Below, in pieces: positions 1,376 through 23,246 of a DNA stretch of 23,480 nt. Source of the stretch: a virus; IMG/VR virus record IMGVR_UViG_3300025286_000145, positions 1-23,480 of that record; one strand, written 5' to 3'. The notes beneath the pieces were generated by a model. The model was given only the letters and a program-made list of their open reading frames with translations. It had not been told where the DNA came from and did not search any database. Position numbers and translations under genes: made by a program. Each line of letters opens with the position of its first letter. Within the stretch, counting starts at the first letter, position 1.

Positions 1376-1498
1376 ATGCTGACTATCGACACGGTGGCGG
1401 CACTGTTGTGCGGTGTGGTTATCGTGTACACATTCTATCTGGGCGCGCGCGTGGATGCGCTACTTCGTGACATCCACGAACGGAACAAACGGCGCTAA
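1376..1498 (+). CDS. Single-pass membrane miniprotein, 40 aa
   Basis: This short frame starts at ATG 1376. Residues 5-22 are hydrophobic (VAALLCGVVIVYTFYLG), followed by a charged, basic tail ending in KRR. That gives an outside N-terminus and a cytoplasmic C-terminus if the positive-inside rule holds. No strong binding site is visible. Its last 32 bases overlap the start of the ParB-like gene in another frame, so the two may be translationally coupled. The function is unknown. The clean membrane-then-basic-tail layout is the main reason to believe it is a gene. Confidence 0.45.
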   Translation: MLTIDTVAALLCGVVIVYTFYLGARVDALLRDIHERNKRR

Positions 1499-2267
1499 AC
1501 GCATTGGCAAGATTGCTGACCTGAAGCCGGACAGTAAGAACGCCAACATGGGAACGCAGCGCGGGCGCGGCTTGCTGGAGAAGTCCCTGCGGCAATACGG
1601 CGCGGGGCGTTCTGTGTTGGCAGATCGTGAGGGCAACCTAATCGCTGGAAACAAGACTGTAGACGTGGCGGCTGAGATCGACCTGCCTGTGCGCGTGGTT
1701 CAGACTGACGGGAACGAACTGGTGGTGGTTCAGCGCACCGACCTTGACCTGGACAGCAGCGAAGGGCGCGGTCTGGCGATAGCAGATAACCGAACCGGCG
1801 AGACGGGGCTGGAGTGGAACACCGAGGCGCTGCTTGACCTGTCGGCCAGCGGTATCGTCGATCTTGAGGAGTTCTGGAAGCCGGGAGAGTTGGAGGAATT
1901 GTTAGGGCATGAGGAAGATTACTACACCAAGAAGGTCACGCCCATAGTTTATGAGCCAAATGGTGAAAAGCCTGATGTGTCTGAGTTGTGTGACCTCTCC
2001 AAAACAGAGGCGCTGATTGAGAATATCGAGAATAGCCAAGAGCTGGACGAGGAAGAAAAGAGGTTTTTGATACACGCAGCACACAGGCACACTGTTTTTA
2101 ATTATGCAAAGGTGGCTGACTTTTATGCACACAGCAGCCCAACTGTGCAGGAGCTGATGCAGCAGTCAGTGCTGGTGCTGATTGATGTTGACAGGGCAAT
2201 AGAGCTGGGGTACATGAAGTTGACTGATGCCCTTATTGATGTGATGGGGGAAGACTATGCAGAGTGA
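1467..2267 (+). CDS. ParB/Srx-like N-terminal domain protein with a second C-terminal module
   Basis: I chose GTG 1467, giving 266 residues, because earlier codons only read through the overlapping miniprotein. Residues 10-120 match the ParB-like nucleotide-binding/nuclease fold of phage proteins: KIADLKPD, GxRGRGLLEKSLRQYGAGRSVLAD and LIAGNKT are the usual signature blocks. Residues from about 132 on form an acidic, helical module rich in Glu, Tyr and Phe. From memory, such proteins are often found just before the TET-associated-type glycosyltransferase found next here. The stop overlaps that gene by 11 bases. By hand count, bases 1561-1860 are about 64% GC and 1861-2100 about 46%, so the second module seems to have a different origin. 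The exact activity is unknown. Confidence 0.7.
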   Translation: MTSTNGTNGAKRIGKIADLKPDSKNANMGTQRGRGLLEKSLRQYGAGRSVLADREGNLIAGNKTVDVAAEIDLPVRVVQTDGNELVVVQRTDLDLDSSEGRGLAIADNRTGETGLEWNTEALLDLSASGIVDLEEFWKPGELEELLGHEEDYYTKKVTPIVYEPNGEKPDVSELCDLSKTEALIENIENSQELDEEEKRFLIHAAHRHTVFNYAKVADFYAHSSPTVQELMQQSVLVLIDVDRAIELGYMKLTDALIDVMGEDYAE

Positions 2268-3117
2268 TTTTGCTGTGTTCATTATGGTGCATGGCCGACC
2301 CAAAAAGATGTGGACTTATCGCAGTCTTAGAAGGCATGGATACACTGGCAAAATCTTTTTAGTGGCAGATGATCTAGATGCAACTGTTGAGGAATATAAA
2401 CACAGGTGGGGTGACGAGTTGTTGGTGTTTGATAAGAGGAGAGCTGCGTTGGGTGTTGATGCAGGGGACAACACAGGGGACTTGCGGAGCACTTTGTTTG
2501 CGGCGAATACTATTGACGACTTGGCTGGGGCTAATGGTATAAAGCACTACATGACCATGTGCGATGACTACACCAGCTTTTTATACAAATTCGATGAAAG
2601 GCTGAAATATAAAGAGCGACCAATTAAGAATCTAGACGGTGTGGTGACTGCCCTGCTTAAATTCTACCAGGGCACCAACGCCTTGACGGTGGCAATGGCG
2701 CAGAACGGAGATTATATTGGCGGCAAGAAGAGTAAATGGGCGATGGATATTAAGTTACACCGGAAGGCTATGAATACGTTTTTGTGTAGTACGGAGCGGC
2801 CATTTCAATTTGTGGGCAGGCTGAACGAGGATGTTAATACGTACGTGAATTTAGGGGGCAAGGGTGGCTTATTCTTGACTGTTCCTAATGTGGCCATTAT
2901 TCAGCAGCGCTCGCAAAAGATGGAGGGAGGCTTGACTGATGTTTATAAAGACTTCGGAACCTATGTCAAGTCGCTTTTTTCTGTGATGTATAACCCTTCG
3001 TGCGTGAGGGTTGCGGAAATGGGACACAAGCACAGAAGACTTCACCACAGGGTAACTTGGGAGAATGCCGTGCCAAAGGTGCTGCGCCCTCAGTGTTGCG
3101 TGCCTGTGCCTGCCTGA
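2257..3117 (+). CDS. TET-associated-type glycosyltransferase (putative DNA base glycosylation)
   Basis: This 286-residue protein resembles the TAGT group of phage glycosyltransferases described near TET/JBP oxygenases and thought to add sugars to modified DNA bases. Recognisable blocks are the start FIMVHGRPKKMWTYRSLRR, GYTGKIFLVADD, the DD pair at 103-104 (YMTMCDDYTSF; the likely metal/nucleotide-sugar site), QNGDYIGG, RPFQFVGRLNEDVNTY, GGLF and a final LHHRVTWENAVPK. No oxygenase or hydroxymethylase lies in this window, so the acceptor base is unknown. The gene overlaps the ParB-like gene and is much poorer in GC than the terminase genes after it, a sign of transfer. Other glycosyltransferase roles cannot be excluded. 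Confidence 0.7.
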   Translation: MQSDFAVFIMVHGRPKKMWTYRSLRRHGYTGKIFLVADDLDATVEEYKHRWGDELLVFDKRRAALGVDAGDNTGDLRSTLFAANTIDDLAGANGIKHYMTMCDDYTSFLYKFDERLKYKERPIKNLDGVVTALLKFYQGTNALTVAMAQNGDYIGGKKSKWAMDIKLHRKAMNTFLCSTERPFQFVGRLNEDVNTYVNLGGKGGLFLTVPNVAIIQQRSQKMEGGLTDVYKDFGTYVKSLFSVMYNPSCVRVAEMGHKHRRLHHRVTWENAVPKVLRPQCCVPVPA

Positions 3118-4680: not shown

Positions 4681-6021
4681 ATGGCGGGACTACGCACTAA
4701 AACAATATTGGAAGAAGGGGCACTCAAGGCGATCGTCGGCATTCCGGGATGGGCCGAGGACTTCAACGAGACGGCCGCAGGCAGCGCCAACGACCCCGTG
4801 AGCGCGTGGGCCACTGTGCCGTTGCTGTACCGGGCGGTGAGCCTGCGGGCCAGCAGTTTGAGCAGCGTTCCGTTCGTGGTATTCAAGGGCGAGCAGGAAG
4901 TCGAGTGGCCGCTAGAGCCAGACTTGCAGACCATCATTTACGCGCTGGAGTTGGGGTTGTTATTGACCGGCGCGGCCTATGGCCTGAAGCAGTACGTGGG
5001 GCGCGTGATGACTGGGGTGCAGGTGCTGAACCCGACGACAGTGAAATGGTCGCACAAGCGCGGCGAGGATCACTTCACCCAGCGGGTGGGCAGTCAGACG
5101 TATGGCCCGTGGGGGCCTGACATAGTTATGGCACTCCGCGAACCATCGATGACCGCTGATACAGGCGCGGGGCTTGCTCCGGCGCAGGTGGCTCTGCAGG
5201 CTTCCAAGCTGCGTTTCAATATGGACGAGTTCGCGAGCCAGTTCTTCGCTAATGGCGCCCAACCCGCTACTCTCATTACTACAACTTCGAATCCTGGCCA
5301 AGTGGAAATGGAGCGGGCGCAGAACTTCTTCCGGCGCAGAATGTCGGGCGTGAGCAATGCCTGGCGCGCCCTCCTGATGCGCGGTGATCTGAAGGTCACC
5401 ACACTCACACCAGAGCTAAAGAGTATGGGCATGAAAGAGCTGGCCGCCCATGTCGCCTTGGACATCGGTGCGGCGCTTGGGGTTCCGAGATCCGTTTTAG
5501 AATCGGACGCCGCCAATTACGCCACGAGCCAGACGGACATGCAATCGTTCTGGCACATGACAATACGCCCGCGTCTGCCGATGTACGAGAACGCCATCAA
5601 TATACAGCTCTTGGCTGGAACAGACTATACGCTCCAGTTCGCACCAGAACAGCTTGACGTATTCCAGGAAGACGAAACCATCCGCGCCGCATCGCTGCTC
5701 CAACTGGTGCAGGCGGGCGTGCCGCTGGATGATGCGATGCTGATGCTGGGATATGACCCCATCGAGAACAGGCCAGAGCCAGAGGCCGAGCAGGTGGTGG
5801 AAGAGGAACCAGAAGATGCACTGGTGGAGAGCGAGCTGGCGACGTGGCAGCGGTACGCGCTGCGCAACCTGAGCAAGAACGGCAAGAGCCGCCCATTTCA
5901 GGTGCAGCACATTCGCGGCGCGGTTGCCGGCGCGATTGAAGGGGCGTTGCAGGGCGCGGAGAACGCGGACGAGGTGCGCGATATCTTCGGTGGCGCGTGG
6001 GCGTGGCATGGCTGGCCCTGA
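4681..6021 (+). CDS. Portal protein (HK97-type)
   Basis: A 446-residue protein ten bases after terL, with a GAGGAA site before ATG 4681. Its layout fits the phage portal family: an N-terminal ATVPLLYRAVSLRASSLSSVPF helix block, a central beta-rich wing with LLLTGAAYGL and YGPWGPDIVMALREP, a long helical stem region with NFFRRRMSGVSNAWRALLM, then DIGAALGVPRSVLE and the FAPEQLDVFQEDE end typical of the family. The C-terminal 90 residues are acidic, then basic. Twelve copies form the ring through which DNA enters (family knowledge). Its stop overlaps the next start as TGATG. Confidence 0.92.
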   Translation: MAGLRTKTILEEGALKAIVGIPGWAEDFNETAAGSANDPVSAWATVPLLYRAVSLRASSLSSVPFVVFKGEQEVEWPLEPDLQTIIYALELGLLLTGAAYGLKQYVGRVMTGVQVLNPTTVKWSHKRGEDHFTQRVGSQTYGPWGPDIVMALREPSMTADTGAGLAPAQVALQASKLRFNMDEFASQFFANGAQPATLITTTSNPGQVEMERAQNFFRRRMSGVSNAWRALLMRGDLKVTTLTPELKSMGMKELAAHVALDIGAALGVPRSVLESDAANYATSQTDMQSFWHMTIRPRLPMYENAINIQLLAGTDYTLQFAPEQLDVFQEDETIRAASLLQLVQAGVPLDDAMLMLGYDPIENRPEPEAEQVVEEEPEDALVESELATWQRYALRNLSKNGKSRPFQVQHIRGAVAGAIEGALQGAENADEVRDIFGGAWAWHGWP

Positions 6022-17612: not shown

Positions 17613-19124
17613 GTGAATGTTAGCGGCGACACTCTGGCGTTCATCAAGAGATGGGAAACCAATGGGCCGCCCATCCTGGCGGCATATTACGACTACCACC
17701 AATGGAGCATCGGGTATGGAACGCGGAGCCGAGAAGGTGAACAGATCACCGAGGCAGAAGCCGAGCACAGGCTCCGCTTGGCTGTGGGTCACTACGCGGA
17801 AGCCCTCGCCAGCCGCCTCACGGTGGCTACAACACCATCACAAGACACGGCGTTATTATCGGCGGCCTTCAACCTGGGCGTGGGTGGTATCGGCCTTGTG
17901 CTTGACTTGTGCAATGAGCGCCGCTGGGCTGATGCTGCGGCGGCGCTGCGGGAATATTGTCACGCGGGCGGCAAGAAACTTGATGCGCTGGTTCGGCGCA
18001 GGAATGCCGAGGCCGCCCTTCTGGAGACTGATCCGGTGACGCGTGGAGCGCCGCGCGTGGAATACGCCAGGACGTACCGCCTGGTGGATGCCGCCGCCAA
18101 CATGCAGACCTGGCTGGATGCGGCTGAGGCCGTGTTCGCGCTGCGCCAGACTTGCGGCTTCAGCGCCGACGATGCTGGCATCGGTGACTTACCGGATCGC
18201 CGCGTTATCCTGCACGGCCACCACCCGCCCGGAATGCAAGAATGGTTCGCAGAGCACTATCCAGGCGTCGACGTGATGGGTGACATAGCCCCAGCGCCTC
18301 CCGTTGCACCAGAGCCGCCTGTGAGCGATATAAAGGCACTCGTAGGCCTGCACGGTTCGGCGGATGGCTCATGGGGAAATGCAATCCTGCCCGAAGCGCA
18401 GGGGTTAGTTTCCACGGCCCGCATTGAGGCATACAAGGCGCTCAGTAACGAGAGCGCCCAGACCGTCGGCGTATTGCGGAAGATCAATCCCGACATGTTT
18501 TTCTGCGTCCGGATGATGGGCAAAGTAACAACCGACCACCCCACCCCCAGCGAGTTCGTAGATCAGTGTGGCCAGGACGTGCGCCGGTGGTATCGGGAAG
18601 GCGTGCGTTATTTCGAAATTCACAATGAGCCGAACCTGCAAGCCGAGGGGATGTGGTTGGCGTGGCAGGACGGCGCGCAATTCTCGCGCTGGTGGCTGTC
18701 GGTTCGCGATGCGCTGAGGGGCGACTGTCCTGACGCGCTGTGGGGCTATCCCGGTTTGTCGCCCGGTGTCGGTATCGACAACGTGCGCGCACCAGCACAG
18801 CGGTTTATGTCAGAGAGCCACGAGGCGATGCAGGCCGCTGATTGGATCGGGGTGCATTGCTATTGGCAGACAGAGGCGGCCATGTGGACGGACGGCCAAT
18901 ATTATAAGCAAGTGCCGCATCAGGGAAAAGAGATATTAATAACAGAGTTCAGCAACCCCAGCGCAGACGTGCCGAAAGAGGAGAAGGCGGCGCAATATGT
19001 GAAATACTGGGATACGCTGGACGGCGTAAGGGCGGCGTTCTGTTTTATAGCCACGGCCAGCTCCGGATTCGATGACGAAACCTGGACGCAGGACATGGCG
19101 CGAATCGTGGGGGCGCGTGGATAA
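17613..19124 (+). CDS. Endolysin with GH24 lysozyme and clan GH-A glycosidase-like domains
   Basis: A 503-residue protein from GTG 17613; its binding site is weak. Residues 1-135 look like a T4-type GH24 lysozyme: E15 in FIKRWE, D27 in YYDYHQW, then IGYGT, with a Ser (S32) where T4 lysozyme has its catalytic Thr26. Residues about 145-225 form a middle domain (YRLVDAAANMQTWLDA, GFSADDAGIGDLPDRRVIL, WFAEHYPGVDV). A Pro-rich linker (APAPPVAPEPP) leads to residues 245-503, a TIM-barrel-like domain with IHNEPN (E339, likely acid/base) and ILITEF (E445, likely nucleophile), the two carboxylates of clan GH-A. It probably cuts host wall sugars at two types of bond (inference). There is no signal peptide; the holin-like gene follows at once. 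Confidence 0.82.
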   Translation: MNVSGDTLAFIKRWETNGPPILAAYYDYHQWSIGYGTRSREGEQITEAEAEHRLRLAVGHYAEALASRLTVATTPSQDTALLSAAFNLGVGGIGLVLDLCNERRWADAAAALREYCHAGGKKLDALVRRRNAEAALLETDPVTRGAPRVEYARTYRLVDAAANMQTWLDAAEAVFALRQTCGFSADDAGIGDLPDRRVILHGHHPPGMQEWFAEHYPGVDVMGDIAPAPPVAPEPPVSDIKALVGLHGSADGSWGNAILPEAQGLVSTARIEAYKALSNESAQTVGVLRKINPDMFFCVRMMGKVTTDHPTPSEFVDQCGQDVRRWYREGVRYFEIHNEPNLQAEGMWLAWQDGAQFSRWWLSVRDALRGDCPDALWGYPGLSPGVGIDNVRAPAQRFMSESHEAMQAADWIGVHCYWQTEAAMWTDGQYYKQVPHQGKEILITEFSNPSADVPKEEKAAQYVKYWDTLDGVRAAFCFIATASSGFDDETWTQDMARIVGARG

Positions 19125-22511: not shown

Positions 22512-23045
22512 ATGATCACTAAGTTTAAGATTGCGCTGGAGCAGAAAGAGTTCGAAGCATTGCAGGAAACCGCCGATGATGAGGTGCGCAGCGCCGCGGG
22601 TCAGGCGCGGCACTGGATTCGTACTGCCCTGCGAAAAGCCGGGAAGTTGAACGACAAGACCAGCGAGCAGAATGTTATTAACCTGTTGTTGTTGGGGAAC
22701 AACCAGCGTAGAGCCGCTGAAGAAGCAGGGGTTGCTCCGGCAACTGTCTCCGCTGCAATATCAGCCACGTCCACCAAGCGACTGAGGTTATCCACGAGGG
22801 CATTTAATGGTTTGTGCCGCAACAAGATAACCACGCTTGGCGGGGTGTTGGGGCTGGTGAAGGACTGCCGTGGAGGTTCGCGATGGCGATCTCTGGGCGC
22901 GCTCCGTAACGTTGGCGAAACATCATACATGGAGATACTAGAGGCCACAATAGTGACGATGTATGAGTGGTTGGTGCATGGTGGATTGGTGAATCCGCCC
23001 ACCGGGGAACTGGGTGCGCACCCACCAAAAGACAACGAACGATGA
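22512..23045 (+). CDS. DNA-binding protein with helix-turn-helix and RNA polymerase alpha-CTD-like domain
   Basis: A 177-residue protein; GGAGG is at 22502-22506. Residues 1-44 are a strand-helix-helix start (KFKIALEQKEFEALQETADDE...). Residues 62-84 hold a helix-turn-helix (NNQRRAAEEAGVAPATVSAAIS). Residues 93-148 resemble the C-terminal domain of RNA polymerase alpha: LSTRAFNGLCRNKITTLGGVL and later LRNVGETSYMEI. By this alignment R96, N99, G135 and S138 sit at the places of E. coli alpha R265, N268, G296 and S299, which contact DNA; Lys298 is replaced. The C-terminal tail is disordered. It is probably a transcription regulator or polymerase-directed factor (inference). The RNA at 23047 starts two bases after its stop. 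Confidence 0.65.
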   Translation: MITKFKIALEQKEFEALQETADDEVRSAAGQARHWIRTALRKAGKLNDKTSEQNVINLLLLGNNQRRAAEEAGVAPATVSAAISATSTKRLRLSTRAFNGLCRNKITTLGGVLGLVKDCRGGSRWRSLGALRNVGETSYMEILEATIVTMYEWLVHGGLVNPPTGELGAHPPKDNER

Positions 23046-23046
23046 T

Positions 23047-23120
23047 GGGCGTGACGGGTATCGACGGGCGGGGGCGTAAAACCTCCCGCCTGTACGCCGG
23101 TTCGACTCCGGCCACGTCCA
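23047..23120 (+). ncRNA. Message-less tmRNA-like (tRNA-like domain only) RNA
   Basis: GGGCGTG (23047-23053) pairs over 7 bp with CACGTCC (23113-23119), with a G-T wobble at pair 3 (23049/23117), the G3:U70 alanine identity element of all tmRNAs. The discriminator is A 23120. GGTATCGACGGG at 23057-23068 matches the conserved tmRNA segment GGxTTCGACGGG that replaces the D arm, three bases after the acceptor, as in some tmRNAs. The T arm at 23096-23112 is perfect: GCCGG, loop TTCGACT, CCGGC. Between them is an 11-bp stem (23064-23074/23083-23093, two G-T pairs) in the place of tmRNA helix P2, closed by the loop CGTAAAAC. There is no anticodon arm, no pseudoknot, no tag frame and no encoded CCA. 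Confidence 0.6.
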
Positions 23121-23124
23121 CTGA

Positions 23125-23246
23125 GAGCGGATGCTGGTGTAAACGGAAACTGCGTGGGGGGCGTTTCGTCCTCCTTATCTCTTTTATCGGTGGGGCTGCT
23201 GCGCGGTGCTGAAGGCCCCCACGGGGTTCGATTCCCCAACCGCTCA
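23125..23246 (+). ncRNA. Second tRNA-like element, long form
   Basis: GAGCGG (23125-23130) pairs with CCGCTC (23240-23245), followed by discriminator A 23246. A T arm is clear: GGGG, loop TTCGATT, CCCC at 23223-23237. T8 and G9, then a D-arm-like stretch with GG in the loop (23134-23153), resemble type II tRNAs. The middle is odd: GGGGGGCG/CGTCCTCC (23156-23163/23167-23174) makes an 8-bp hairpin with loop TTT, and GTGGGGG (23154-23160) could instead pair with CCCCCAC (23216-23222). A 7-base anticodon loop CGTTTCG would lack T33. No encoded CCA. It may be a degenerate tRNA or a relative of the first element. Confidence 0.45.

Follow-up and report, generated by a model that had tools for sequence, protein, structure and literature searches.

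A message-less tmRNA reduced to the tRNA-like domain is widespread in phages, with practically invariant alanine determinants

INTRODUCTION

The tRNA-like domain (TLD) of tmRNA is described in PMC8012679 as being alanylated by AlaRS and bound by EF-Tu as a tRNA would be, with SmpB standing in for the anticodon arm that it lacks. On a non-stop ribosome the peptide is passed to the alanine of the tmRNA, and the tag is then read from the mRNA-like part of the molecule (PMC8012679). Full-length tmRNAs are also encoded by phages, as in the mycobacteriophages Bxz1 and Wildcat, the Streptomyces BE phages and Melnitz, in which the tmRNA is in two pieces (PMC4131195, PMC9004378). In addition, message-less tmRNAs occur in some mitochondria and plastids, and these organellar forms retain SmpB as their partner (PMC11915505). 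Among phages, a ‘TLD only’ tmRNA was listed in 2014 for mycobacteriophage DS6A by Hudson, Lau and Williams (PMC4131195; restated in PMC11915505), and DS6A is the sole phage named in the passage of PMC11915505 that deals with tag-less forms. According to PMC4131195, which cites Mao et al. 2009, a TLD-only molecule strongly inhibits the E. coli tmRNA whether it can be charged or not, perhaps by titration of SmpB.

In this work, we have analysed a linear IMG/VR fragment of 23,480 bases from a tailed phage (the window) that carries an RNA of this sort, together with the family of related RNAs in virus contigs and cultured phages. The original prediction for this DNA held that no phage RNA of this kind had been described, a claim that the DS6A TLD-only tmRNA of 2014 contradicts (PMC4131195). 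The kind is thus already known, and what is new here is the breadth of the family and the uniform selection for alanine charging to which its sequences point. The window RNA and that of DS6A, likened by description, are of the same TLD-only kind and come from different phages, and the family described here comprises at least 104 non-redundant IMG/VR sequences. In open-access full texts, with subscription journals and preprints covered in part, we found no report on the breadth of a TLD-only phage family.

RESULTS

The window RNA is the tRNA-like domain of tmRNA

A tmRNA-like RNA without a message had been predicted at 23047-23120, and both the position and the identity hold: the element spans 23047-23119 with A73 at 23120, and a cmscan search with Rfam returned a match to the tmRNA model RF00023 that extends to 23123 and contains the TLD only (E 3.1e-16; 47.8 bits, where the gathering score is 47). 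The model is aligned from end to end (1-374) with 306 of its positions deleted, which correspond to the whole mRNA-like and pseudoknot part, and the score passes only narrowly since the greater part of the model has no counterpart in the RNA. A covariance model made from 16 other phage RNAs, with the window RNA and its relative in contig L062 left out, recovered the window RNA with 55.2 bits (E 1.2e-11).

The RNA is 77 nt long with an interior of 30 nt, and combines the two TLD halves of tmRNA within a single short molecule (Table 1). The acceptor of 7 bp with G3:U70, the T arm and the capped stem of 11 bp were all found as predicted, with 7 of 7 and 5 of 5 pairs in the two former; the latter, as read from the sequence, is made up of nine pairs between 23066-23074 and 23083-23091 and of two more between 23064-23065 and 23092-23093. 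Like canonical tmRNA (RF00023), the RNA has the acceptor with G3:U70, A73, the GGNNTCGAC segment, the P2 stem, a GGAC-type junction and the T arm, so that both alanine identity elements, G3:U70 and A73, are present. Unlike canonical tmRNA, which measures about 360 nt, it lacks a reading frame for a tag, a resume codon and the pseudoknots. Since A73 is followed by CTG, the gene does not encode the CCA end.

Table 1. Features of the window, with positions counted from its first base
Feature	Position	Strand	Basis or remark
Beta-glucosyl-HMC-alpha-glucosyltransferase family match beside a ParB-like/methyltransferase match	2257-3117 and 1413-2267	+	7e-62 for the glucosyltransferase family
ORF of 177 aa just upstream of the mini RNA	22512-23045	+	no PHROGs match
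TLD-only tmRNA-like RNA, whole	23047-23123	+	RF00023, 47.8 bits; model from other phage RNAs, 55.2 bits
Acceptor 5' strand GGGCGTG, contains G3 of G3:U70	23047-23053	+	7/7 pairs with 23113-23119
GGTATCGAC, tmRNA-type segment replacing the D arm	23057-23065	+	aligned to GGaUUCGAC of RF00023
P2-like stem with short closing loop	23066-23091	+	9 bp; tmRNA continues here into pseudoknots and tag
GTAC, counterpart of the tmRNA GGAC junction before the T arm	23092-23095	+	family comparison
T arm GCCGG-TTCGACT-CCGGC	23096-23112	+	5/5 pairs
Acceptor 3' strand CACGTCC, contains U70	23113-23119	+	stem pairing
A73 (23120), then CTG	23120-23123	+	read from sequence
Second tRNA-like RNA	23125-23245	+	acceptor GAGCGG/CCGCTC
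Short frame within the second RNA	23180-23216	+	alignment read by eye

Several other identities were considered and rejected. A canonical tRNA with a real anticodon arm was sought, and ARAGORN with default settings found none; GGTATCGAC stands in the place of the D arm and the 11-bp stem in that of the anticodon arm. At the same settings no tmRNA was called at the window RNA either, and with introns allowed the program returned only a contrived tRNA-Asp. A permuted tmRNA reached 13.8 bits, where the cut-off is 47, and a chance fold is rejected by the covariation of the family and by a control scan of bacterial and archaeal genomes, both presented below. A complete tmRNA whose 5' half lies far away was considered too, as ARAGORN calls tmRNAs at several loci of the family; these calls were discounted because at L066, where one such 5' end was read, it lacks a TLD 5' half. 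We conclude that the window RNA is a tmRNA TLD without a message, homologous to the TLD of tmRNA.

Among the known forms, the jakobid mitochondrial tmRNA (RF02544) and the ~65-bp plastid tmRNAs of the Mallomonadaceae (PMC11915505) are likewise message-less and reduced to the TLD. These are, however, organellar, they stand beside a nuclear SmpB and the mitochondrial genes are usually permuted, whereas the window RNA is viral and unpermuted. The full-length phage tmRNAs share with the mini RNA that they are phage-encoded and, as may be supposed for the mini RNA by analogy, that they use the SmpB of the host; in contrast to it they have the tag, and complete trans-translation is possible.

The RNA belongs to a large family present in virus contigs

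IMG/VR was searched with a pattern in which GGTATCGAC, GGATTCGAC or GGTTTCGAC is followed after 20-50 bases by GGTTCGANTCC, the acceptor stem, P2 and the discriminator base being left free, and a script accepted as valid those RNAs in which no more than one of 7 acceptor pairs and no more than one of 5 T-stem pairs were missing. In three scans, 49 of 64, 17 of 30 and, among the matches listed, 113 of 120 contigs passed; one pass of the third scan (L145) is a tRNA-like false positive, and valid TLD-only RNAs are present in at least 178 virus contigs. At a mutual identity below 85%, 106 hits were left, which include at least 104 family members after a tRNA and the genome match L279 are dropped, and the segment occurs in the family as GGTTTCGAC, GGTATCGAC and GGATTCGAC.

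When bacterial and archaeal genomes (257 Gb) were scanned with the TAT pattern, at most one of 87 raw hits (L279) was a valid RNA, compared with the 49 of 64 obtained for the same DNA pattern in virus contigs, which indicates that the RNA is a feature of phages and not of cellular chromosomes. The one match with a complete TLD-only structure in a bacterial genome, L279 (4627-4699), comes from a Candidatus Eremiobacterota MAG, and may represent a prophage, or else a contig of viral origin that was assigned to that MAG in binning.

Unannotated family members were also found in cultured phages. Two of the carriers are Streptomyces phages: LuckySocke (OR725497), in which the RNA lies at 17977-18057 within a cluster of tRNAs, and BRock (KX925554, 97140-97220). 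Further carriers are Pontimonas phage phiPsal1 (MG835450), in which the RNA at 5569-5650 is directly followed by the major capsid gene, and Stenotrophomonas virus Jojan60 (ON045087, 37722-37804). BLAST matches in phages GMA2, SM1, Rb1 and QDWS595 were incomplete as family members by the script test. The Microbacterium phages Skylord and Gack contain weaker, longer and divergent TLD-like candidates (L309, 2438-2530; L312, 2448-2539), which have G3:U70, carry GGCATCGCC or GGAAGGCC where GGNNTCGAC is expected, and adjoin tRNA genes.

The fold and the alanine determinants are conserved in different ways

As the original prediction had anticipated, the stems of the homologues covary, with compensatory changes in both the acceptor and P2, and G3:U70 is kept. 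Over the 104 family members listed, in which pairs were counted with a custom script, acceptor pairs 4-7 are formed in 99.5% of cases against 59% with shuffled partners, and the first seven pairs of P2 in 86% against 42% when shuffled and ~40% when slid by one base, with all six standard pair types seen at each of these 7 positions. Pairs were also counted in an ungapped 16-sequence subset of a MAFFT alignment, where 97.2% of the cells pair against 72.4% in shuffles, none of 500 shuffles attained the observed values, and both sides had changed in 16 of the 22 pairs.

By comparison, the determinants of alanine charging hardly change. G3:U70 was found in 105 of the 106 non-redundant hits listed, the sole exception being an unrelated tRNA, and A73 also in 105, neither of them being part of the search pattern; in the same set, pairs 1:72 and 2:71 are G-C with few exceptions and CCA is encoded in 27. 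The junction, which lies outside the pattern too, is exactly GGAC in 73 of the 104 family members listed and GTAC in 6, and the GTAC of the window is thus unlike the form of most members. The fact that P2 and most acceptor pairs vary while the alanine determinants stay fixed argues that charging matters, and alanine charging appears to be under uniform selection across the family, its determinants being practically invariant.

The family, like the window RNA, shows no message: the interiors of its members are short, stop codons are only slightly commoner in them than in shuffles, and Ala-Ala-stop occurs in 2 of the 104 listed.

Genomic context of the mini RNA

No constant partner gene emerged when the flanking ORFs were compared all against all; the neighbours differ among loci, and a function shared with one neighbouring gene was rejected on this ground. 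Subsets of the loci lie near DnaB-like or terminase-like genes (names read from sequence starts). A tRNA is located within 200 bases in 33 of the 176 IMG/VR members listed, and 127 of the 176 have no tRNA in the stretch examined.

We also examined 41 virus records with family members, mostly fragments. In 38 of them RF00023 detects above its gathering cut-off the mini RNA alone, and in the other three the minis fall just below it, so that no full-length standard tmRNA was seen in these records, in which the model could miss permuted or divergent tmRNAs. A search for SmpB in the same 41, mostly fragmentary, records gave 0 matches, which speaks for dependence of the mini RNA on host factors. A tyrosine integrase was matched in 9, and 2 of the records encode a small GGQ release-factor-like protein. 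The latter two (L316 and L317, the records behind L019 and L054) combine the mini RNA with this ArfB-type or PrfH-type protein of ~120-130 aa, which might serve as a substitute in ribosome rescue.

The window itself codes for a terminase, a portal, a head protein, an endolysin and an Erf-type recombinase, every one on the + strand, and no integrase was seen in its scanned ORFs. The terminases closest to its own are those of Thermus and Halorubrum phages, at ~33-34% identity. The glucosyltransferase match and the adjoining ParB-like/methyltransferase match (Table 1) suggest that this phage has modified DNA. No relatives of the 177-aa protein encoded just upstream of the mini RNA were found in an IMG/VR search. 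Its ORF is missing from the same place in the nearest relative, the 13.5-kb contig L062, which has an identical mini RNA and ~76-89% identity to the window elsewhere, and it would seem that the ORF was recently gained or lost next to the RNA.

Immediately 3' of the mini RNA there is a second tRNA-like RNA, with a D-arm-like GGTGTAAACGGAAACT, a T arm GGGGTTCGATTCCCC preceded by a further hairpin, and an 8-bp hairpin that replaces the anticodon arm, its loop having 3 nt in the window and 8 nt in relatives. It has no Rfam match beyond the T arm and no INPHARED match. L062 shows 93% identity over the mini RNA and the second RNA together, and in L315, otherwise without DNA similarity to the window, the second RNA is 85% identical with compensatory changes in both hairpins. 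With G3:C70 in its acceptor, this RNA would not be expected to be charged with alanine. The three copies have in common a short frame that ends in IGGAAARC-stop in the window, IGGAAA-stop in L062 and IGGAAAQC-stop in L315; the shared IGGAAA is faintly like an SsrA-type tag and may be due to chance.

DISCUSSION

We propose, with only a little more confidence than doubt, that the mini RNA is a competitor charged with alanine, which takes up the SmpB of the host and either blocks trans-translation or shortcuts it, by competition or by poisoning. The host would charge the free tRNA-like domain with alanine, and the charged RNA would bind host SmpB (and EF-Tu). Because it has neither resume codon nor tag, the Ala-RNA-SmpB complex would then compete with host tmRNA for SmpB and for stalled ribosomes; it may enter the ribosome but could not supply a resume codon. 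The net effect would be a dampened trans-translation during infection, and unfinished phage proteins may in this way escape tagging for proteolysis. We infer transcription, charging, SmpB binding, competition and the benefit to the phage alike from sequence comparison.

That G3:U70 is so strictly kept would be explained just as well if the RNA entered ribosomes productively. Charged RNA and SmpB might enter a stalled ribosome and take over the nascent chain. The peptidyl-RNA would then be released untagged, for instance through the action of peptidyl-tRNA hydrolase or the splitting of the ribosome, so that ribosomes are freed and the protein is spared. We regard this as possible and consider it doubtful. 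Near-invariant G3:U70 and A73 imply that charging matters, as peptidyl transfer needs, and message-less organellar tmRNAs have kept SmpB as partner (PMC11915505), yet the only effect that PMC4131195 reports for such a molecule is inhibition of tmRNA. The sequence is compatible with this route and with the charged competitor, and cannot separate the two. To our knowledge, there is no known step by which a peptide is released from a message-less TLD. If true, such a rescue, with one alanine added, would constitute a third outcome, alongside trans-translation and release by ArfA/ArfB.

It is rather unlikely that the RNA acts as a passive sponge for SmpB, for which the SmpB-binding surface would suffice and charging would be irrelevant. 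A similar molecule is reported to inhibit tmRNA whether chargeable or not (PMC4131195), and for that same reason SmpB titration alone does not explain why G3:U70 is so strictly conserved. A sponge would be free to lose this pair, and every family member keeps it while neighbouring acceptor pairs vary.

tmRNA genes are common attachment sites of phages, and some matches in Mycobacterium phages (Validus, L313) are indeed 3'-half pieces of tmRNA that adjoin an integrase. That the family derives from such pieces, host tmRNA remnants serving as the attP of temperate phages, is nevertheless very improbable, and a tmRNA-type attachment site is rejected as a general explanation: both TLD halves are present and covary where attachment pieces have the 3' half only, 32 of the 41 family records have no tyrosine integrase match, and Validus reaches only 13.7 bits with the family model. 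We give equally little credence to a tRNA-like processing signal between phage genes, cut by RNase P or RNase Z, as might be suggested by the phiPsal1 RNA directly before the major capsid gene, since processing needs neither G3:U70, A73 nor the GGAC junction and the neighbouring genes differ among loci.

Whether or not it acts as the alanyl-charged competitor that we propose, a message-less phage tmRNA, formerly regarded as an oddity of a single mycobacteriophage, is now seen to recur: at least 178 virus contigs carry an RNA of this kind, as do cultured phages that infect Streptomyces, Stenotrophomonas and Pontimonas. Its fixed alanine determinants predict more than the titration of SmpB, and the cultured carriers make it testable whether phages suppress or bypass trans-translation, and by what route.
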